DNA of 27,236 nt, from the IMG/VR virus record IMGVR_UViG_3300047557_002353, positions 1 to 27,236 of that record; one strand, 5' to 3'. The notes below the pieces were generated by a model. It had not been told where the DNA came from. It did no database searches and saw nothing but the letters and a program-made list of their open reading frames with translations. Origin of the DNA: a virus. Shown in pieces: positions 7,417 through 22,492 of this stretch; within the stretch, counting starts at the first letter, position 1, and each line of letters opens with the position of its first letter. The position numbers were made by a program, and so were the translations under genes.

Positions 7417-9030
7417 TCACTCCCATTTAACCTTATTTGCCCAATATGCAGCACTCATTTTTCCTTTTTTAATATTTTTTTTATGTCTTTTTTTGAATCT
7501 ATTTCTACGATTTGCATAAGCTTCAGATTCATTCTTCTTTTTTGGTGATCCCTTTACACCTTTTTGTCCAAAACGAATAAGCTTTTCTTCTCCTCCTTCA
7601 CATGCCTTTACCACATGAGATTTTCCTGTCTCACCTGAGCCATAAGGTTCTGCTTTTGGCTTATTGCATTTCATTTGAGACTTTTTTGCTTCCAATATTT
7701 CAACCTCTTCCCCAATAGTCCCATTATTCATGAGATAGTTTTTAGATTTTTTGTCTGGAACTTGAATAATAGGAAGATTTTGCTGTATTCTACTTGGAGT
7801 GTATGTAATTACCTTACAGTTTGGATATACCTTATTGGCTTCATCTGATATTTCTCTTCTATTAGGCATTCTTATTTGTGGGAAGAACATTTGAATATTG
7901 TAATATTTTGCTCTCCACATTAAAGTAACAGAAAAGTTGTGTCCATATTGAGTAGGAATTGTTGTTTCTGACACTTCAGTAGAAGTTCCAGTTTGAGATA
8001 ACTCCTTCTTTTTTGCATCAGCTAATTTAATTTTAGCTCTATCTACTTCTTTTTGCGCAGTTAACACTCGAATGGCTACATTTTCTTCTACTTCAACACA
8101 TGATCCCTCTTCATACTTTTTTGTTCCCTTTTTTCTTTTATATCCACTCCAACAAGAATCACTCTTTTTGGATTTTTTTGCTTCCTTGATTAATGGATCT
8201 GCAGTAATAAGATCAATAAATTCATAAGAAGCATTACCAAACATGTCTCTTACTATCTTACTTTCTTTTTGTGTCTCTACTTTTTTTAACTTTGTATAGT
8301 AATCTGGTACTTCATCTAAATGTTGAAGTGCAGTAATTCTTGCAGAAGTCTTGTCCGAAGTATGCTCTCCTTCTACTTTAATTCCCATCTTTAATTGGGT
8401 ATTTATCTCATCTAAAGAGACCCCATGCTTTTTTGCAATTTCTTCAGGAGACTTATATGCCTGAACTGGACCTTTTGGGTCCTTTTCTTCGTGCATGGAT
8501 GAACAATCTTTATATCCATGCTTAGGGCACTTTTTTCCCTTTTTTGTTTTATTGCACCCACAACCCATTTCAGACAAGATTTGATCTACTAGAGAAATTT
8601 CTTCATTTCTTGGTGGCAAGTGCTTATATCTGGGAAGAAGTTGGGATCCTGTTCCTCCCAATTTTCTTACTATATTTTGTGCTGCTTCTCCTTCTCCAGG
8701 AGTTCCTGGTTTATCTATTATGCCGGTTGCTTTAGTTTTTTTTGTCTCTCTTTTATGTGTGTTTTTGTCGATTTTAAATGATTTGTTTTTGTCTTCATTC
8801 AATTCTTCATCACTCTGAAGATATTCTGCTGCAGTATCAATATAATCAGCTGCTCTAGTAATTTTAGATTGTACCCAAGCAGGTAATTGAGTATCACTGC
8901 TCTTAATTGCTTTTCTTAAGTTTTTTACAGCTCTTTCGATTGAATCCAATTCAATCCCTGCCATATAGCCTTCGTCATCTTTCTTTTTGCCACTAGCAAT
9001 TTCTTTGTGATCTTCGTTGATTCTTTTCAT
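7417..9030 (-). CDS. Mosaic protein of unknown function between gp16 and gp17, with a DUF5661-like segment
   Basis: This 537-residue, Lys-rich protein has several distinct segments. Residues 20-73 form a helical block (GYMAGIELDSIERAVKNL...). Residues 155-180 hold a Cys/His cluster (MGCGCNKTKKGKKCPKHGYK) that could bind a metal. Residues 192-253 (SPEEIAKKHGVSLDEI, EHTSD, DYYTKLKKVE) look like the DUF5661 family. Residues 292-311 carry a Cys-containing CWSGYKRKKGTKKYEEGSC motif. Residues 365-412 (MWRAKYYNIQMFFPQIRMPNRREI) resemble small marine phage proteins I cannot name. Residues 453-536 are a very basic Cys-containing tail (MKCNKPKA, VVKACEGGEEKLIRFGQKGV, KMSAAYWANKVKW) found in other marine phage proteins. 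No function is known to me. The basic tail and position between terminase genes suggest DNA- or prohead-associated activity; this is inference. It has its own late promoter. Confidence 0.8.
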   Translation of the reverse strand: MKRINEDHKEIASGKKKDDEGYMAGIELDSIERAVKNLRKAIKSSDTQLPAWVQSKITRAADYIDTAAEYLQSDEELNEDKNKSFKIDKNTHKRETKKTKATGIIDKPGTPGEGEAAQNIVRKLGGTGSQLLPRYKHLPPRNEEISLVDQILSEMGCGCNKTKKGKKCPKHGYKDCSSMHEEKDPKGPVQAYKSPEEIAKKHGVSLDEINTQLKMGIKVEGEHTSDKTSARITALQHLDEVPDYYTKLKKVETQKESKIVRDMFGNASYEFIDLITADPLIKEAKKSKKSDSCWSGYKRKKGTKKYEEGSCVEVEENVAIRVLTAQKEVDRAKIKLADAKKKELSQTGTSTEVSETTIPTQYGHNFSVTLMWRAKYYNIQMFFPQIRMPNRREISDEANKVYPNCKVITYTPSRIQQNLPIIQVPDKKSKNYLMNNGTIGEEVEILEAKKSQMKCNKPKAEPYGSGETGKSHVVKACEGGEEKLIRFGQKGVKGSPKKKNESEAYANRRNRFKKRHKKNIKKGKMSAAYWANKVKWE

Positions 9031-13708: not shown

Positions 13709-16213
13709 TTAAGCTAATGCTATAACTCTAAGATCAGATAGTCTAGGTGGAAAAGCTTGGTTTGTGCCAGAACCAATTAATTTTATACTAAAATATTTGA
13801 ATGGGGAAAGATTATTTACTGTAAATTCATACTCTTTATATTCTAAATCTGCTGAATTATAACCAATTTTATTTGTTTTAACTATTTTTTTATCTGAAGT
13901 TCCATCACTTAAGGATTGTGAAATCACCCTACCATCATCAGTGAGGTTTGAATATCCAGGGAAAGGATAAAAAATTGATTCATCAGTTGCATTACTTTTA
14001 ATTGAATATAGTGCTCTAAGATCACTAAAAACATTTACATATGCAGTAACAAGTACTTTTAATGAAGTTGCTGGAATTTCTAGTTGAATGGCATTAGTTG
14101 CATAAATGAATGCTGAAGGATCATCGACAATAGTACTAACTCTATTATCTGTAGCATAATTTTGAATAGGATTATTGATCCTATTAGTTGTGAATATAAC
14201 TGATGATCGATCCAAATCAACTGTTGGTGATATATAAGAACTTGTTGTTGATAATGCTAAATCTACTGTTAATGATTTTTTTGCTGGAAGTGTGGATAAT
14301 CTTTCGTCCTCATTTACTTTTGAACAAACTAATCTTGGTGAATCGAAATAATTATTTTGATAAAGTTTTACATTAGTGAATCCTTTATCCTGGAATGAAT
14401 TTTCCAAACCATCAACACTAGTTCCAGAAACTGTTCTCATTGATGCTGTGATATTAGTTCCATTGATTGATGTAGTTTGTATATTTGGATTTGCGATTTC
14501 ATACTGAATATTTTGAGTGCAATTTATAGAAGATCCTCCTGTTGATTTTGTCTCATTTGCATATAATTTGGGGAAAGAAGTTCCGACGCTTCTATCAACT
14601 TGACCATAAGGAAGAGCATCAGTTTTTCCATTTTGGGATGTATCTATTTTAATTGTGTAGTAATCAAAATCAACTGGGTCAAAAACCGTAGCATCTTGAA
14701 GTGTATGTGTAGTATTAATTCTTCTCAAAGATATGCCATTTAATTCATACTTATATACTGAAACTCCTTGAGAATATGAAAATGGTAGAGTTTGATCAAT
14801 ACCTCTAGTTATTCCAGTTAAAGAATTTGCAGTTACTCCTTCATAAGAAATAATTTCACTTCCAATTAAAACATATCCTGGATTAGTATTACTAACACCA
14901 ACATTTTCAAAAGTAGAAAAACTGATAGTGCTATCTACTAAAATATCTTGATTTGAGTCTTTACCGTACTCTGCCGTCAGTTTGATTGGTTTGACATTTC
15001 CAATAACATTTGATATCCTTACAATATTTTCTCCTGCGTGCATTCCATGATTTCTATGATTTACTCTTACATGCAACCCATCTGTTTCTACCTGAATTCC
15101 ATCTGCTGGTATAAGAACATTACCACCAATAGAAGAATTTAAATCTGTAGTTATGCCAGAATTATTAACATACTGAATTGCTTTTGCAGTTCCAACTTCA
15201 AACTCTCCTTGAACATTGTCAATTATTAGCTCATTTATCCCACCTAGTTCTGATACTGATATTTGTAAGTTTCTACCAAGAGACTTAGTTCCAATTTGCG
15301 TAGATGTTAAAACATCTCCAACAACATATCCTGTTCCACCATTAGATATTGTTGCTGCAATAGCAACGCCATTAGAAATGGTAATATTTGCAGTGGCATC
15401 TCTGCCATTTCCTGTAATATTACTTAAAGAAACATTATTATATGTAAAAGATCCTGATGTTGGTGTGTAACCAATACCGGCATTAATTAAAGTTAAATTT
15501 CCTTTTGCAATCCCTGCTGCTGCAATATAATTTCCTGTTGCATTAGTTTCTTTTTGTAGGATTGTATTTCCAAAAGTAAGATTTGTATCTTGGACTGTTG
15601 TGCCTAAACCAACTCTTATCTTTTTTGAAGAAAATTCAAGAGAATCTTTAACTAAAGTTGAAACTTGACCATTTCCTGGACTTGACTCTGGATTATAGAA
15701 AGAAAAATTTCCTTGACCTTGAGTAAAATTTGCTCTATATAATGTAAATTTTAGATCTTCAAATGGACTTTCATTCCAGGTTGAAGCATTTTGGGACTTA
15801 AAAAGTCCTCCAGATACTGGCTGCTTAGTGACTACAAATTGAGATGACTCTTGTAAAGATATAGTTGAAACATCAATTTCCCCTAATCTAGAAACCCAAA
15901 CATTATAATTTTGAGATTGTGAAATTATAACAAGAGAATGAAATGTTTGACCTTTAAGATAAACTGGAGAAGGAAAAGTTACTCTAGTCGGAACTGAAGC
16001 ATCATCGTATGCTTGAATATCTTTAGGATCTAATATAACTTCACCAAACGGATATACTTTCTTAGTTGGTACGCCAAGTTCCATTGGCCTAAGTTGGACT
16101 GCCACTGGCAAATCATCGTCTTTAGATAAAAAGTACAAATCAACAGAAGTAATAAAAGCACCTCTTCTATTTTCAATATAAAAAGATTGTGCCAATGGAT
16201 CTATAACTTTCAT
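13709..16213 (-). CDS. Structural protein beginning at DPLAQSF; apparent C-terminal half of a long tail/fibre protein
   Basis: This 834-residue protein opens MKVIDPLAQSFYIENRRGAF, followed by a beta domain (VDLYFLSKDDDLPVAVQLRPM, VPTRVTFPSPVYL) and ends FKYFSIKLIGSGTNQAFPPRLSDLRVIALA. In the related cyanophage proteins I recall, this DPLAQSF...DLRVIA block is the C-terminal part of one very long structural chain whose N-terminal part corresponds to the 1842-aa protein here. Two Gly-Tyr repeats lie near residues 246 and 295, and an Arg-Gly hinge-like module (ISFSTFENVGVSNTNPG, SEIISYEGVTANSLTGITRG) near 430-490. The gene sits between gp8 and gp13, where T4 carries baseplate and short-fibre genes. 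It has its own late promoter. The start ATG at 16211-16213 is well placed relative to that promoter. Confidence 0.85.
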   Translation of the reverse strand: MKVIDPLAQSFYIENRRGAFITSVDLYFLSKDDDLPVAVQLRPMELGVPTKKVYPFGEVILDPKDIQAYDDASVPTRVTFPSPVYLKGQTFHSLVIISQSQNYNVWVSRLGEIDVSTISLQESSQFVVTKQPVSGGLFKSQNASTWNESPFEDLKFTLYRANFTQGQGNFSFYNPESSPGNGQVSTLVKDSLEFSSKKIRVGLGTTVQDTNLTFGNTILQKETNATGNYIAAAGIAKGNLTLINAGIGYTPTSGSFTYNNVSLSNITGNGRDATANITISNGVAIAATISNGGTGYVVGDVLTSTQIGTKSLGRNLQISVSELGGINELIIDNVQGEFEVGTAKAIQYVNNSGITTDLNSSIGGNVLIPADGIQVETDGLHVRVNHRNHGMHAGENIVRISNVIGNVKPIKLTAEYGKDSNQDILVDSTISFSTFENVGVSNTNPGYVLIGSEIISYEGVTANSLTGITRGIDQTLPFSYSQGVSVYKYELNGISLRRINTTHTLQDATVFDPVDFDYYTIKIDTSQNGKTDALPYGQVDRSVGTSFPKLYANETKSTGGSSINCTQNIQYEIANPNIQTTSINGTNITASMRTVSGTSVDGLENSFQDKGFTNVKLYQNNYFDSPRLVCSKVNEDERLSTLPAKKSLTVDLALSTTSSYISPTVDLDRSSVIFTTNRINNPIQNYATDNRVSTIVDDPSAFIYATNAIQLEIPATSLKVLVTAYVNVFSDLRALYSIKSNATDESIFYPFPGYSNLTDDGRVISQSLSDGTSDKKIVKTNKIGYNSADLEYKEYEFTVNNLSPFKYFSIKLIGSGTNQAFPPRLSDLRVIALA

Positions 16214-16234: not shown

Positions 16235-16672
16235 CTATTTATTTTGATTAGTTATCAGCGTATTTTCATTGAGAAAATTTTTAGCATTTTCTTCTCCATA
16301 ATTCAAAGTTAACTCTTCTCCAATGTCAATATCTCTAGTTGCATAATGAACCATTATTTCATTTGCCCCATCAATTTGATAATCTAAATTTGAATTTAAA
16401 CTGTGATTATATAAACCACAATATCCCATTCCTATTACATACCCACCATTAAAATCATAACTGTATTGTATGATTGATTTTGTTAAATTCATCTCATCTG
16501 ATGGTATAAAAAAATATGGAAATTCTTCAATAATTTCATACTTTTTGATTTTTTCTTTTGCAAACACTCCCCATCTATGAATTTTAGACCTCCTTACAAA
16601 AACTTTTTCGGAAAAAAGCAATGAATCTTTATACACTGATCTTGAATTATTCAAATTGGATTCTTTTTTCAT
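16235..16672 (-). CDS. SET-domain protein, putative lysine methyltransferase
   Basis: This 145-residue protein has the core motifs of a SET domain, which transfers a methyl group from S-adenosylmethionine to lysine: HRWGVFAKEKI (residues 32-42), a GYCGLYNHSLNSN segment with the NHS cofactor motif at 89-91, and ARDIDIGEELTLNYG (111-126 region) with the GEELT-x-x-YG active-site motif and Tyr125. It is compact and lacks the Cys-rich pre- and post-SET regions of eukaryotic enzymes. It starts 11 bp after the S74-domain gene and precedes the 834-aa structural gene. A possible GTG start at 16675 directly precedes the chosen ATG at 16672. The substrate is unknown; a virion or host protein is a guess. 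Confidence 0.88.
   Translation of the reverse strand: MKKESNLNNSRSVYKDSLLFSEKVFVRRSKIHRWGVFAKEKIKKYEIIEEFPYFFIPSDEMNLTKSIIQYSYDFNGGYVIGMGYCGLYNHSLNSNLDYQIDGANEIMVHYATRDIDIGEELTLNYGEENAKNFLNENTLITNQNK
16236..16243 (-). promoter_or_regulatory. T4-type late promoter box (AATAAATA) before the 834-aa gene
   Basis: The minus strand reads AATAAATA, 22 bp before the ATG at 16213, overlapping the end of the SET gene. It is an exact NATAAATA match. Confidence 0.67.
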
Positions 16673-16683
16673 CACATTAGAAT

Positions 16684-16956
16684 TTATGGGTTCAAATCTT
16701 TAATACTATTTTTTAAATTGCTAATTTCTATATTTAATTCTTTTATTGATTCTATCATAACGGGAATTAGTTGAATATAATCAACAGCCAAATACCCATT
16801 TTCTTGTCTTTGGACCATTTCCGGAAATTCTTTTTGAACTTCTTGCGCAATAACTCCATAAGAATTTCCAGATACCCCACTAATTTCTGTCATCTTTTCA
16901 TTCCATTCATAGTACATTCCATTTAATTTTGAAATTTTATCTAGATAGAACCCCAT
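16684..16956 (-). CDS. Detached S74-type intramolecular chaperone domain (C-terminal body)
   Basis: This 90-residue protein matches the body of the Peptidase_S74 chaperone that ends many phage fibres and helps them trimerise: LDKISKLNGMYYEWNEKM (5-22), YGVIAQEVQKEFPEMV (33-48), NGYLAVDYIQLIPVMIESIK (53-72) and a C-terminal coiled coil. It lacks the Ser-Asp...Lys self-cleavage segment that begins such domains; that segment (SDINLKTN) is the very end of the preceding 1842-aa gene. The ATG at 16954-16956 lies seven bases after that gene's TAA, so termination-reinitiation is plausible. All three frames carry a stop within 16956-16966, so no single frameshift could join the two genes. It may act as a separate chaperone or be a decaying remnant. 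Confidence 0.85.
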   Translation of the reverse strand: MGFYLDKISKLNGMYYEWNEKMTEISGVSGNSYGVIAQEVQKEFPEMVQRQENGYLAVDYIQLIPVMIESIKELNIEISNLKNSIKDLNP

Positions 16957-16963
16957 TATTCAT

Positions 16964-19900
16964 TTACAAATTGCATAACCTATTTAGAGCATTGTTAATC
17001 TTTTGAATATTAGTCTTAAGATTGATATCACTCATGCCCATACCGCCGCCGCCCATATTGCCGCCGCCCATATTGCCGCCGCCCATACTGCCGCCGCTAC
17101 CGCTTGGTGCTTGTGCTGGTGCTGATGGAGATGCGCTATTATTACCGCCGCCACCGCCCAATGTCACTGCTTGACCTTTGATTATTGCCGTAACTGGGCC
17201 GATGCTTTTCACAGTGTTGCTGCCACCACCGTTGCCTGTATTTTTATTTGTAGGTCCAGTATTTTTATTTGTAGGTTTAGATGGCTCATTAATTTTTGCT
17301 TTAGTTGCACCTTGACCCACTTTTGCTCCAGCTAAAGAAACATTTTGTCCGGATCCAACGACAGTTTTAGGTCCATTTTTAGTATTACCTGTTGACACTT
17401 GGATATTATTAGTTTGTGCATATGAAGAAGAATTAATTGAACTAACAACCTTTCTTTCTTGCTTTGCAGTCATATCAGGATCAATTTTTCTAATTAAATC
17501 TCTAGGAAGACCTGCAGCTTTTGCTAGAGCTGTTAATCTATCTGCACCACTATCATATAATTTTGGTGTATTGTAGTTATAATAAACAATAGTTGGAGGT
17601 TTTGGCACTGGTCCTACTGGTCCTACTGGAGTCGGTACTGAAGTTACTGGTTGAGATCCAGAACTTCCTTGTCTTGAAAATGTAGGTGCTGCAGCAGGTG
17701 GAGCAGGTGGAGGAGTTGCTGGGCCTGGAATTGCAGGTTCATCTTCTGGGGCTTCTATTCTAATAGGTCTTGATACAATTACATTTTCTTGGACGGTATT
17801 AATTTTACCTTCAGAAACATACTTTTCTTCGGCACTTGTAGTGTATGTTCCATATACTAGAGAGTTAGATTCGCTACTAGTTAATCTGAATACTTTAGAT
17901 CCACACTCAAATTTGGGATTAACATCTACATTTGGATTTGGTATAAAGAAAGATCCTAAAATAGTTCCAGTTCTATCTGTTACTAGTCTAATATTAGTAA
18001 CAATTGCTTCTGCTTGGCTTGTCTGGCCTCTCAACTTCATTCCAATAGAAATATATCCATTAAATTGTCCTTGTGGTTGATTGGATAAACTATAAGTATC
18101 AACATTGAGAATAGATGATGTTGAACTATAAAGTTCCGGAATATTTGTAGTTGGATCGTATGGATTTATTGTATAGATATCCGTAGGGTTTGTGTAATCT
18201 CCATATTTGTGATTTTGCTTAGCAACTCTAAAAGTTATTTTTGGAGATAGACTATCTAAAGTATCAAAACTACCTATGACCGTTTCACCAACTTGAAAAA
18301 CTCCACTAGTCATACTAATTTCAACTAATTTTGGTATAATAAATTTACCAAAATTTACACCGTTAAAAAATGGATATACTCTTGTTAAAGGTCTTAATCT
18401 ATTTGCAGTAAACTCTACATTTCTAGACCTCATGTAAGGCATTATCTTCGTATCGAGTACTCTGTCGCCAAAAGATGTTCTCTTTTCGGGTATTACCCAA
18501 ATTTTTTCGGTCGCATTCCATTCACCACCTACAAATCCCTTTTGTGGGTCATATTCTAGAAGTTGTTCGAGTTCGGATTCTTCTCTATCAATAAAAAGTG
18601 TATTAGACGCATTTCTAACCTGATCTACCCAAACATCAGAAGATGGGAATAGTAAAATAGTACCAGTATAAAAATCTTCAATGTAAGGATTTACATTAAC
18701 CGCTCTTGATGCATATGGTTGTACTATTTCTGGAACTTCTTCATAGTCTAATGTTACTAATTGACCTGTTCTTCTTACTCCAGTTCCAATTAAATTTGTA
18801 TCCGTTTTTGCATCTTGTAGTGGATTTACTGATGTACCAATTCCAACTGAAGAATTTGTACCTAATAGTAAATCTATTGATGTTGTATAGTGATTTGGTC
18901 TTAATTCTACATTAGTGAGATCTATAGAATTTTTATATACTACCAGTCTATCTTGGGTATCTTTTGATGTAAAGTTATCTACAAAAAATCCAGATTTAAA
19001 TCTGTTTATTCCATTTTCATCTATTACTGATAGTGTAGATGTATTTAATTCAAGCAAAGAAAGTGAAGTATAATACTCTAAGTTTTCAATCCTATCCTCA
19101 AGTTTTGTAATGTCCGACATCGTATATCGTTTATGTTCTTTCAAATCAATATCAATTTCATTGATGTTAAGCAAATAAGGTGGAAGATAAACACTTGCAA
19201 CCTCTAAAACATCTTCATCAACAAGAGGTTGTTGTGGTTCTTCTGCGGAAACTCCATTTTTTACTTGTAAAGCACCATTTTTATTGAGAGTAATTTTATC
19301 AATTCTCGGTAGGTAGAAAGAATATGATAAAAGAATAGACTCATCTGAAGCCAAAACATTAGAGGCAGAATTTCCAGACTCAGTAAAATTCCTAGATAAG
19401 AACTCAAATGGAGATCTTGAATTTTCTGTTGGTGTAATCGGAGAAACTCTGGGTCTAATGTCTATAATATCAGAGTTTCTTAGTGTATCATATACACCAC
19501 TTATATAACTATAACCAAATTGCTCATATGAATTTACTGTTGTTATATCTCCAGTATCAGACGCAGAAAAACTTGCAGATTCAAAAACTACTTTTAATTT
19601 TCTTGTTGGTTCTTTTGTATTTTTTCTTCTTATTAACTTGGAGTAATCGTAAATTGTTTCTTTTTGATTTGAATCAATAAAGAATGAAGGACTAATATCA
19701 TTATCTCCAGTATCCGAAGATACAATAATAGCAGTAATGCCAGATTCTCTGAAAGTTATTTTTTCGCCTTCAATAAAAGAACTCGAATTCAGATAACTAA
19801 ATCCTACTTTTAGATCATTAATTTTTTCTACATAAATTCCGATAGATTTACTTCTTTCGCCAATAAATTCTTCTCCAACTAAAAGGTCTCCTGTTTTGCC

Positions 19901-22492
19901 TGTAGGTCCTGTTAGATTATTTAATATTAAAGATGGAGTATCTGGAGTTGAAGTATCGTTAGATTCATATATTCCATATATTGTAGATATATCCGGTTCA
20001 AGTAAGCAAATTTCCTCATCCTGTACTCTAGTCCCATATGGATAATTTCCATACCTAAGTCCATCATTTAATGTTGTTGCGCCAACACCTGAAGATGAAT
20101 ACTTAGATTTATCAATAACAATGGTTTTTATTCTATTTCTATTTTTAATCTTTGACTTTATATTAGTTTTTCTTAGAGTTGTAATTAATTTTGCGCTTCC
20201 ATTTCCAGAAAGTCCATTTATTGTTAGAGAACTCGATCCATTTGCAAATACAAATTTATCAGAACTAAGAGGCTCTGTTTGGCCATCTTCTCTTACTAAT
20301 ACATATCTCTCTTCGTCAAATGGTAAAAATGTTTCATTTGCTCCGGCATTTATTACTCCGGTAGAGTTCGATGATATTATCACATCAAACTGTTTTCTAA
20401 TAGTTAGATATGAATTAGTAAGATCTACATTTGAAATGTATGATTTTGGTAGAATTGTATATAAGGAGTTATCTTCAGATATTTGTAGAGATGTTGTAAC
20501 TATTCTAAAATCTGATGGTGTTATATCAGCTAATGGAAGAGACCCGTCGCATACTCCAGTGACAGTAGTTACTCCACTTATTGTCAAAGATCTATCTGAT
20601 ACAGATAAAACCTTAGCAAAAGTATTTGTAGAAAATCCTGGATTCGAGAATGCAACTAAATTTCCAACATTAGCAACACCGGAAAAGAAAGTATTTGATG
20701 TTGTAACTGTACTAATACCAGAAGATCCATCTGATATGTTTACTTGACCCACTAAAATTGATGGAGTTTGTAATGTGTCTGCAGTAAAAGTATATGCACT
20801 TCCAACAATACCATATAAAGACTTTACATCATTTATTCCGTAAGATTTTACTGACTTAGTTACTCTTGTATTTTCTATTCCATCAAAAATAAGTTTTTCG
20901 CCAAGAGAAAAAGTTCCATTTGTGGTATAGACAGTAACCGCAATTCCCGAAGAAACATCATATCTCAAATAACCAATTGCACCACTTTCTTTTCCTTTAA
21001 TATGAGTTGGTGTTTGTAATGTTATTGGTTCATTTAAGGTTAATGTTGTATATGTTTGAATATCGTAAAGTGAGATATCCCACTGATTTTCGTCTGGATT
21101 TGATGTTGTATATGATCCAGATTCTAACGCAAAATCATAAACTCTAGCTAATCCAATTTCATTCCCAGAAGCAGATGTTGGAGATTTTCCTACCCTACTG
21201 TCTCTAAGACTTACATAATAAGTTGTAGCAATACTAACAAGAGGAGATCCATATACTCTGTTTAGGGTTAAAGTTGAGCCAGTAAAATAATTTATACTTT
21301 GATCTACTAAAGTTTTTGTATCTCTTGGTTTCTGAAAATCTAAAAATGTGGGGCTAATAGTTTCAATTTCAAATCCACTAACATAAGCCTTAAGTGGAGA
21401 TATACTATATGTGCCAATACTTTCATCTGGAATACTATCATCATAAGTTAATTGATTTTCTTCAAATAGTCCATTATTTCCCTTAAAATCATTTAAACTT
21501 TCATTAACTCTAACAATTGGTGGATTTACATAATAATTCCCGGATTCATTAAATGTTCTTCTTGCAAATTCTTCTGCTAATGTATTATATTCAGTATTAC
21601 TTGCCTGACTAATAAGTTGTCCAGCATTAATTTCTAATAGCTGGATAAAGTTTTCAGTATCATTAGAATCTAATGGGATTTGATCTAATTTTACGAAAAT
21701 TGAAAATCTATCGGCACCAGGAGCTGAATAATTTGAAAATCCTTGAGCATTATCGTATAAAGTATCGTCATCTACTGCTGTTTTAATATCTTCAAATATT
21801 CTAAGACCTACTTTAGCACTAGGAATATTTGAATATGGATCTAGATATAAAATGCTAGTGGGAACATTTACAAAGTAACCTCTAAGAAAATAAATTCCCT
21901 CTTCTAGATAAACAGCAGATCCCAAAGAAGTTCCATCTTGAGAAACAACTGTGGCAAATCCTTCTCCGTTTTGAATTAAAATTTCTGTAGGATCTTCATT
22001 ATCTATTGTGTTAGGATCTATTACCTCAACATCCTGATCTAATAATAAATTTTCTCCATTTGCAAATGTTCTTTCTGAATTAGTTTCCGAATCGGATGCT
22101 AAATATTTTACAAATAAAGTTGTCCTATCAACTCCATTCCCAGATCTAATATAATTTTCAATTGTTGCAGTTACGCCACTTCTCTGGCCTCTTATTTTAG
22201 AACCTAATAAACTGTCAAGATAAAAATAAGAAGGGACACCCTGATAACTATCTTCTATGATAACACTGTTTAAGTCATTTTTATAAACAATATTTCCCGG
22301 TATAACTACAGATCCTTCTTTAAAAATATGATTACCAAATTGTTCAATTTGATTTTGTAATATTGACTGAATAGTAGTAAGTTCTCTAGCTTGAACTGGA
22401 TATCCAGGCTTGAAAAGAACTTTATGGTATCCTTTACCAGGATCAAAATCATCAAAGTAAGGTGATACGTTGAGATTAGTTTCTTGAGGCAT
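16964..22492 (-). CDS. Giant tail/fibre-type structural protein (DUF4815-like N-terminus) ending in an S74 cleavage segment
   Basis: This 1842-residue protein opens with NLNVSPYFDDFDPGKGYHKV and a LFKPGYPVQARELTTIQSIL block, the signature of a long virion protein family of marine T4-like phages (DUF4815-like). A coiled-coil start MSDITKLEDRIENLEYY lies at 1125-1141. From about 1582 the chain changes character: a Pro-rich linker (PGPATPPPAPP), a VGPVGPV stretch, a 7-residue tandem repeat (PTNKNTG), a Gly/Met-rich tract and finally MSDINLKTNIQKINNAL, where Ser1821 and Lys1826 fit the Ser/Lys cleavage dyad of S74 chaperones. The chaperone body itself is on the next gene. Its position between gp8 and gp13 suggests a baseplate or tail-fibre component. 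The start is the ATG at 22490-22492, nine bases after gp8. Confidence 0.88.
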   Translation of the reverse strand: MPQETNLNVSPYFDDFDPGKGYHKVLFKPGYPVQARELTTIQSILQNQIEQFGNHIFKEGSVVIPGNIVYKNDLNSVIIEDSYQGVPSYFYLDSLLGSKIRGQRSGVTATIENYIRSGNGVDRTTLFVKYLASDSETNSERTFANGENLLLDQDVEVIDPNTIDNEDPTEILIQNGEGFATVVSQDGTSLGSAVYLEEGIYFLRGYFVNVPTSILYLDPYSNIPSAKVGLRIFEDIKTAVDDDTLYDNAQGFSNYSAPGADRFSIFVKLDQIPLDSNDTENFIQLLEINAGQLISQASNTEYNTLAEEFARRTFNESGNYYVNPPIVRVNESLNDFKGNNGLFEENQLTYDDSIPDESIGTYSISPLKAYVSGFEIETISPTFLDFQKPRDTKTLVDQSINYFTGSTLTLNRVYGSPLVSIATTYYVSLRDSRVGKSPTSASGNEIGLARVYDFALESGSYTTSNPDENQWDISLYDIQTYTTLTLNEPITLQTPTHIKGKESGAIGYLRYDVSSGIAVTVYTTNGTFSLGEKLIFDGIENTRVTKSVKSYGINDVKSLYGIVGSAYTFTADTLQTPSILVGQVNISDGSSGISTVTTSNTFFSGVANVGNLVAFSNPGFSTNTFAKVLSVSDRSLTISGVTTVTGVCDGSLPLADITPSDFRIVTTSLQISEDNSLYTILPKSYISNVDLTNSYLTIRKQFDVIISSNSTGVINAGANETFLPFDEERYVLVREDGQTEPLSSDKFVFANGSSSLTINGLSGNGSAKLITTLRKTNIKSKIKNRNRIKTIVIDKSKYSSSGVGATTLNDGLRYGNYPYGTRVQDEEICLLEPDISTIYGIYESNDTSTPDTPSLILNNLTGPTGKTGDLLVGEEFIGERSKSIGIYVEKINDLKVGFSYLNSSSFIEGEKITFRESGITAIIVSSDTGDNDISPSFFIDSNQKETIYDYSKLIRRKNTKEPTRKLKVVFESASFSASDTGDITTVNSYEQFGYSYISGVYDTLRNSDIIDIRPRVSPITPTENSRSPFEFLSRNFTESGNSASNVLASDESILLSYSFYLPRIDKITLNKNGALQVKNGVSAEEPQQPLVDEDVLEVASVYLPPYLLNINEIDIDLKEHKRYTMSDITKLEDRIENLEYYTSLSLLELNTSTLSVIDENGINRFKSGFFVDNFTSKDTQDRLVVYKNSIDLTNVELRPNHYTTSIDLLLGTNSSVGIGTSVNPLQDAKTDTNLIGTGVRRTGQLVTLDYEEVPEIVQPYASRAVNVNPYIEDFYTGTILLFPSSDVWVDQVRNASNTLFIDREESELEQLLEYDPQKGFVGGEWNATEKIWVIPEKRTSFGDRVLDTKIMPYMRSRNVEFTANRLRPLTRVYPFFNGVNFGKFIIPKLVEISMTSGVFQVGETVIGSFDTLDSLSPKITFRVAKQNHKYGDYTNPTDIYTINPYDPTTNIPELYSSTSSILNVDTYSLSNQPQGQFNGYISIGMKLRGQTSQAEAIVTNIRLVTDRTGTILGSFFIPNPNVDVNPKFECGSKVFRLTSSESNSLVYGTYTTSAEEKYVSEGKINTVQENVIVSRPIRIEAPEDEPAIPGPATPPPAPPAAAPTFSRQGSSGSQPVTSVPTPVGPVGPVPKPPTIVYYNYNTPKLYDSGADRLTALAKAAGLPRDLIRKIDPDMTAKQERKVVSSINSSSYAQTNNIQVSTGNTKNGPKTVVGSGQNVSLAGAKVGQGATKAKINEPSKPTNKNTGPTNKNTGNGGGSNTVKSIGPVTAIIKGQAVTLGGGGGNNSASPSAPAQAPSGSGGSMGGGNMGGGNMGGGGMGMSDINLKTNIQKINNALNRLCNL
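17046..17090. repeat. 15-bp tandem repeat coding for Gly-Met-rich tract
   Basis: Three head-to-tail 15-bp units (consensus CCGCCGCCCATATTG, the third with one change) encode MGGGN-type repeats on the minus strand, flanked by further CCGCCG runs. They lie just before the S74 cleavage segment. The stretch is GC-rich inside an AT-rich genome, so its composition differs sharply from its surroundings. Confidence 0.9.
17235..17276. repeat. 21-bp tandem duplication coding for PTNKNTG twice
   Basis: Two adjacent 21-bp units differ at one position and encode the heptapeptide PTNKNTG twice in the low-complexity C-terminal region of the 1842-aa protein. This looks like slippage or unequal exchange within a fibre linker. 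Confidence 0.88.

Follow-up and report, generated by a model that had tools for sequence, protein, structure and literature searches.

A Peptidase_S74 Domain Divided between the Baseplate Protein VrlC and a Separate Small Gene in T4-like Aquatic Phages: A Candidate Two-Chain Chaperone-Autoprotease

The window, i.e., the whole stretch of 27,236 nucleotides analysed here (IMG/VR record IMGVR_UViG_3300047557_002353), encodes a Peptidase_S74 domain in two pieces. The catalytic dyad and the S74 body are on separate polypeptides with a stop codon between them, in the window as well as in all of the split loci, and this is a split variant of Peptidase_S74 rather than an ordinary (intramolecular) member. 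The favoured reading, with a probability of about 0.72, is a two-chain Peptidase_S74 chaperone-autoprotease of a T4-like aquatic phage that would be expressed late, act in trans, and be completed by a peptide of its client. The same split was found in 47 other viral contigs, all from uncultured aquatic viruses of bacteria, so the two-piece arrangement is far beyond chance.

The Divided S74 Domain in the Window

The upstream ORF (16964-22492, minus strand) encodes a chain of 1842 aa, composed of a DUF4815 region that covers phrog_358 positions 1-1400, a Pro/Gly-rich tail, and an S74 N-terminal peptide. Its C-terminal end is MSDINLKTNIQKINNALNRLCNL, within which Ser1821 and Lys1826 are found. 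The peptide SDINLKTNIQKINNALNRLCNL (16964-17032 with the stop codon included, minus strand) carries the Ser1821/Lys1826 dyad (Ser-x4-Lys) and the first copy of helix 1. It matched positions 1-24 of the PF13884 profile with 20.1 bits (E 2.3e-5), which, for the N-terminal piece alone, is just below the cut-off of 22 bits. The second ORF (16684-16956, minus strand) starts 7 nt past the stop codon of the first and encodes the S74 C-terminal chain of 90 aa with its own ATG; its match to profile positions 17-57 lies at 16813-16944 and, at 35.3 bits, is above the cut-off. The preliminary description, made from the letters of the DNA, had numbered the dyad correctly on an S74-like end and had placed the rest of the domain in a gene 7 nt further on, and the alignment of both products to PF13884 bears this out. 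The 43-nt stretch that it had pointed out between the CTA of NNAL and the CTA preceding GATAAA is also present; however, it does not represent a simple insertion. Profile positions 17-24 are covered by both pieces, which means that each chain has its own helix 1, and the arrangement is therefore not one intact domain with a 43-bp insert. A recent 43-bp insertion was rejected on this overlap and on the lack of any unsplit S74 at this site among the VrlC loci fetched; moreover, the spacing differs among relatives.

The dyad of the window is preceded by a Gly/Pro-rich linker, and a beta-helical stalk is not evident in the sequence. Repeat detection and translation delimited a Gly/Met-rich part of this linker at 17036-17097 (minus strand), consisting of 4.1 copies of a 15-bp tandem repeat. 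The repeat lies directly before the S74 peptide, codes for GGNMG, and is GC-rich in an AT-rich genome. Among relatives, the linker before the S74 peptide varies widely.

The 90-aa chain (P0001) was modelled with AlphaFold from a 30-row alignment and compared with known structures using Foldseek and VIA-align. The model had a pLDDT of 90 and matched residues 600-701 of 7dc3 (the MyRF ICA) with a Z score of 9.0 and an rmsd of 1.7 over 90 residues, followed by 3gw6 (endosialidase, 923-1062), 4uw8 (T5 pb1, 1276-1396), and 3gud (neck appendage). These four best matches are all S74/ICA chaperones, and all other rows had Z scores of 3 or less. The dyads of the known proteins are S587/K592 in MyRF, S911/K916 in the endosialidase, and S1264/K1269 in T5 pb1 (PMC8326128, PMC4690869). 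Compared with these positions, the aligned ranges of 7dc3, 3gw6, and 4uw8 place the start of the small chain just past the dyad segment. The small chain is thus predicted to have the S74/ICA fold from 7-8 residues past the catalytic lysine onwards, and the part missing from it is the one borne by the VrlC tail. When the stop codon of a relative (L065) was read through and the product folded with intact relatives, the dyad strand obtained a pLDDT of ~97, with low confidence for helix 1 in its first copy. The structural alignment did not match the dyad strand of this read-through model to the crystal position, and its placement there is unproven.

Conservation of the Split and a Late Promoter Motif in Shared Codons

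Relatives were collected in two rounds, the first with the 90-aa protein as the query and the second with an alignment of the relatives obtained. The window and the representatives of the 47 other contigs made up 35 representative loci. The identity of the small protein among the split relatives reaches down to ~57%, while the small gene of L003 is 100% identical to that of the window. All 35 small genes have their own start codon (34 ATG and one GTG), and the motif SDxxLKxNI was found at the end of the upstream protein in every split locus. The stop-to-start spacing ranges from -17 to +8 nt, with relative frames 0, 1, and 2 occurring in 2, 11, and 22 loci, respectively. The dN/dS of the small gene between near relatives is ~0.03-0.14, and the small chain is judged from these values to be under purifying selection. 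Twenty-five columns are invariant across 30 small-chain sequences, and the chain retains GVIAQ, GLIAQ, or GVLAQ; GVIAQ corresponds to the trimerisation region (PMC3742440).

Outside this context, i.e., in the remaining loci fetched, in the cultured phages that were read, and in three bacterial genomes, S74 takes the ordinary fused form. Cultured phages H1, H32, and H36 have fused S74 ORFs, in the annotation of H3 the domain closes a single tail fibre protein, and none of the cultured-phage records read contained a split S74. The three relatives in GTDB genomes all carry a fused S74. Conversely, none of the VrlC loci fetched has an unsplit S74 at this place. A second, complete S74 domain was located on a tail-fibre-like protein of 719-816 aa at G002:61323-61487, G003:20875-21033, G005:21374-21532, and G008:1117-1275; in these phages, it lies ~26 kb from the split module.

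The split is neither recent nor an artefact. A recent gene disruption or an assembly artefact, both considered in the preliminary description, had as its sole basis the look of a broken domain in one sequence, and its probability is now negligible given that the arrangement is conserved in 47 other contigs with apparent purifying selection. Disruption is rejected by the 35 loci with their separate start codons, the low dN/dS, and the invariant dyad motif, and a 43-bp assembly artefact by the presence of the same split in relatives. Recoding, by a frameshift, bypass, or read-through, might instead yield one fused S74 protein in the manner of T4 gene 60, and matching CTA codons do stand on both sides of the 43-nt gap in the window. 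Against it, the spacing takes values between -17 and +8 nt, all three frames are used, and a start codon is always present, which makes this reading highly improbable: the varying spacing and frames rule out one conserved frameshift, bypass, or read-through. The earlier argument against frameshifting thus holds, and the variation of frame among relatives adds to it. Programmed translational bypass of the T4 gene 60 type was rejected for the same reason, since it needs a fixed reading relation and both frame and distance vary.

The small gene has its own putative T4-type late promoter within the upstream codons. In the window, the motif CTAAATAG (16980-16987, minus strand) occupies Leu-Asn-Arg codons 31 nt before the 90-aa gene. 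The form [C/A]TAAATA was present 26-52 nt before the small gene in 35 of 35 representative loci, inside the overlapping codons of the long gene, compared with 5.5 loci expected when synonymous codons were resampled with the codon usage of each locus; the loci are related, so these are not 35 independent events. None of 15 intact S74 domains contained the motif, and it occurred just 7 times in 128 kb of the VrlC N body. In the loci without the NALNRL peptide, it was found in other codons (ATAAATA in SINN/SINS, CTAAATA in LLNI or DLNI), i.e., the same motif is realised by at least four different codon placements. Over 24 loci, the motif was located 20-55 nt upstream of 85 of 191 ORF starts, with 146 copies on the coding strand vs. 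26 on the other. It is close to the late promoter NATAAATA of S-PM2 (PMC2984593), and CTAAATAG agrees with the TATAAATA/NATAAATA-like motif of T4-type late promoters. Reinitiation, as proposed in the preliminary description, is consequently no longer the only route of expression to be considered. The VrlC C-terminal gene has a motif copy of its own, ATAAATAG (16235-16242, minus strand), 29 nt before its start, and a copy within 80 nt was present in all 32 split and 11 two-chain loci tested. This copy is often built from the final codons of the small chaperone gene together with its stop (..Asn-Lys-stop = AATAAATAA), as in L017, L020, L025, L034, L038, and others, which is a second overlap of promoter and code.

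The Client Protein VrlC and a Second Host Gene

The minus strand of the window carries a T4-like structural block with homologues of gp7, gp8, VrlC, and the gp13-gp20 group, in which the gene order gp7-gp8-VrlC is kept. The 1842-aa protein matched PF16075 (DUF4815) with an E value of 1.1e-63 and phrog_358 at positions 1-1400 of 2056. The VrlC C-terminal chain of 834 aa (13709-16213, minus strand) matched phrog_358 at 1421-2055 and aligned to the VrlC of S-SM2. From these matches, the long protein is assigned to the baseplate protein VrlC, of which it forms the N-terminal two-thirds, and not as a tail fibre, the identity previously proposed for it; the division of the client VrlC into two genes around the split S74 module had been overlooked. 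VrlC is regarded as a component of the two-layered baseplate (PMC7029224). Most of each half can be aligned to the VrlC/DUF4815 proteins of cyanomyoviruses S-SM2 and S-SCSM1, which are single chains without S74, whereas here two genes flank the split S74 module. In S-SM2, the two halves align to one chain of 2519 aa with ~32 residues between them, and among cultured phages S-SCSM1 comes closest to the C half (49.9% identity).

A tree of the VrlC C half was built from 93 loci. All two-gene VrlC were on one side of a single branch with a support of 88; 29 of these 40 rows have a split S74 and 11 have none, with approximately six changes of S74 presence inside the clade. Since 11 of the 40 two-chain rows do without S74, the module is dispensable there, which counts against the favoured reading. 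Where the VrlC N chain lacks S74, it terminates in an unrelated tail rich in Pro, Gly, or Asn, and an intact S74 was not observed on any VrlC N chain among the loci fetched. The simplest history suggested by the tree would be a single event in which the module arrived and VrlC was divided, after which the module was lost several times; its repeated gain in the VrlC clade is a possible alternative. In L023 (1-2836), the place of the VrlC C half after the VrlC N tail and the split S74 is taken by a large gene for a terminase-like protein, which is a rearranged gene order.

Between the chaperone gene and the VrlC C-terminal gene, the window encodes a SET-domain protein (16235-16675, minus strand; PF00856, E 1.8e-12). 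A SET match was present in L004-L015 and absent from L016-L042, and the gene is therefore accessory. It places a protein methyltransferase fold within a baseplate operon. Elsewhere in the window (7417-9030), a 537-aa protein with phrog_7595 at its C-terminal end is encoded between the genes for the small and large terminase subunits.

A second host gene was found in two contigs. At L026:6544-8677, and also in L027, the split S74 module is located in an adhesin-tip gene, itself cut in two. The first 232 residues of the upstream protein match the adhesin-tip protein of S-SRM01 (47% identity), and the same module follows, with a Gly-rich linker, SDLRLKKNI, CTAAATAT at -29, and a separate S74 gene; past the S74 gene, a separate ORF of 141 aa encodes the rest of the adhesin. 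Ahead of the module, at ~277-410, the protein contains an intein/Hint-like segment (CPDPEMPILMADG...HTYVCCGFLSHN), with an E value of 0.034 to PF14890, below the cut-off, and a tblastn E value of 1e-6 to part of Corynebacterium phage terminases. These proteins may thus possess two self-processing modules in a row. The example, one in two contigs, suggests that the module is mobile and cuts its host gene in two. A tentative extension, doubtful as yet, is that linker, S74 peptide, promoter, and S74 body form a mobile cassette that has split virion genes twice or more (VrlC and adhesin-tip), adding a removable tail and a promoter; under this reading, VrlC counts as one split event on the tree, and the adhesin-tip copy is preceded by the intein-like segment.

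Proposed Mechanism and Comparison with Known Chaperones

In the proposed mechanism, a late mRNA would start from the small gene's own T4-type late promoter within the upstream codons, and the small chain would be translated from its own start codon, possibly aided by termination-reinitiation. Three small chains would form the usual S74 trimer, into which three VrlC tails would thread to supply the missing strand and the dyad. On correct assembly, Ser1821 would cut the chain before itself, and the tail peptide would be released together with the chaperone. A separate gene would let the chaperone be made in excess of its ~200-kDa client. The preliminary description had put forward two outcomes, and the evidence favours the one in which a chaperone acts in trans and joins the end of the long protein, although the assembly itself is something that we infer. 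In MyRF, the segment that is cut passes through the trimer ring and makes scarcely any contact with the stalk (PMC8326128, PMC4690869), which makes a flexible client tail plausible. The presence of a Gly-rich linker instead of an evident beta-helical stalk before Ser1821 counts against the mechanism, and cleavage is the main doubt because T5 uses a stalk arginine that helps cleavage (PMC8326128, PMC4690869) and none is evident in the linker.

In the strongest competing explanation, the chains assemble without cutting, the S74 peptide acting as a permanent docking strand and the small chain as a trimerising cap that stays in the baseplate. It agrees with the lack of an evident beta-helical stalk before the dyad and with Listeria phage A511, whose VrlC-like fibre protein Gp106 presumably acts together with Gp107, a small separate putative chaperone (PMC11406892). 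Nevertheless, Ser and Lys are both retained in every split locus although the preceding linker varies freely, and this explanation is considered rather unlikely, if well ahead of the others. The small chain might also serve another client, such as the intact S74 fibre ~26 kb away in relatives, with the VrlC tail peptide as a relic, given that G002, G003, G004, G005, and G008 bear a second, complete S74 domain. That domain, being complete, has no need of a partner; the tail motif does not vary and always has the small gene beside it, even in the adhesin gene of L026, so that this reading is improbable. The two-chain chaperone-autoprotease completed by the VrlC tail is preferred over both.

In textbooks, the S74 domain is an intramolecular chaperone that removes itself by cleavage, and the gp38/Tfa type of phage trans-chaperone is placed in another class. 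The present module shares PF13884, the Ser-x4-Lys dyad, and the C-terminal fold, as predicted, with the known Peptidase_S74/ICA proteins (endosialidase NF, T5 pb1, 3gud, and MYRF). However, these are one chain, whereas here two chains are separately made, with the dyad on the client and the trimerising body on the other protein, and the client ends in a Gly-rich linker with no evident beta-helix. The genes for T4 gp38, Mu Tfa, and V22 gp27 are likewise small, separate, and directly downstream of the presumed client; to our knowledge, the clients of such chaperones carry no part of the chaperone. They were set apart by their descriptions, according to which they are separate proteins outside the S74 kind (PMC7289586). 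In A511 (Gp106/Gp107) and Deep-Blue (Gp176/Gp175), a VrlC-type protein is also followed by a small separate putative chaperone; the likeness of Gp107 and Gp175 to the split S74 rests on gene arrangement, and no structural match was found for Gp175 (63 aa) (PMC11406892). The parts described here are of known kinds; a split or trans-acting S74, its division between a client and a separate gene, and a promoter in the shared codons were not found in the open-access literature, subscription papers being outside the scope of the search.

With part of a conserved S74 domain on the client and the rest on the chaperone, the split bridges the intramolecular and trans-chaperone classes, a built-in single-use helper having turned into a separate partner. 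It provides a natural two-component system in which the function of the dyad can be tested with the trimerising body in trans. In addition, a putative late promoter and the protein code share the same codons across diverse phages.
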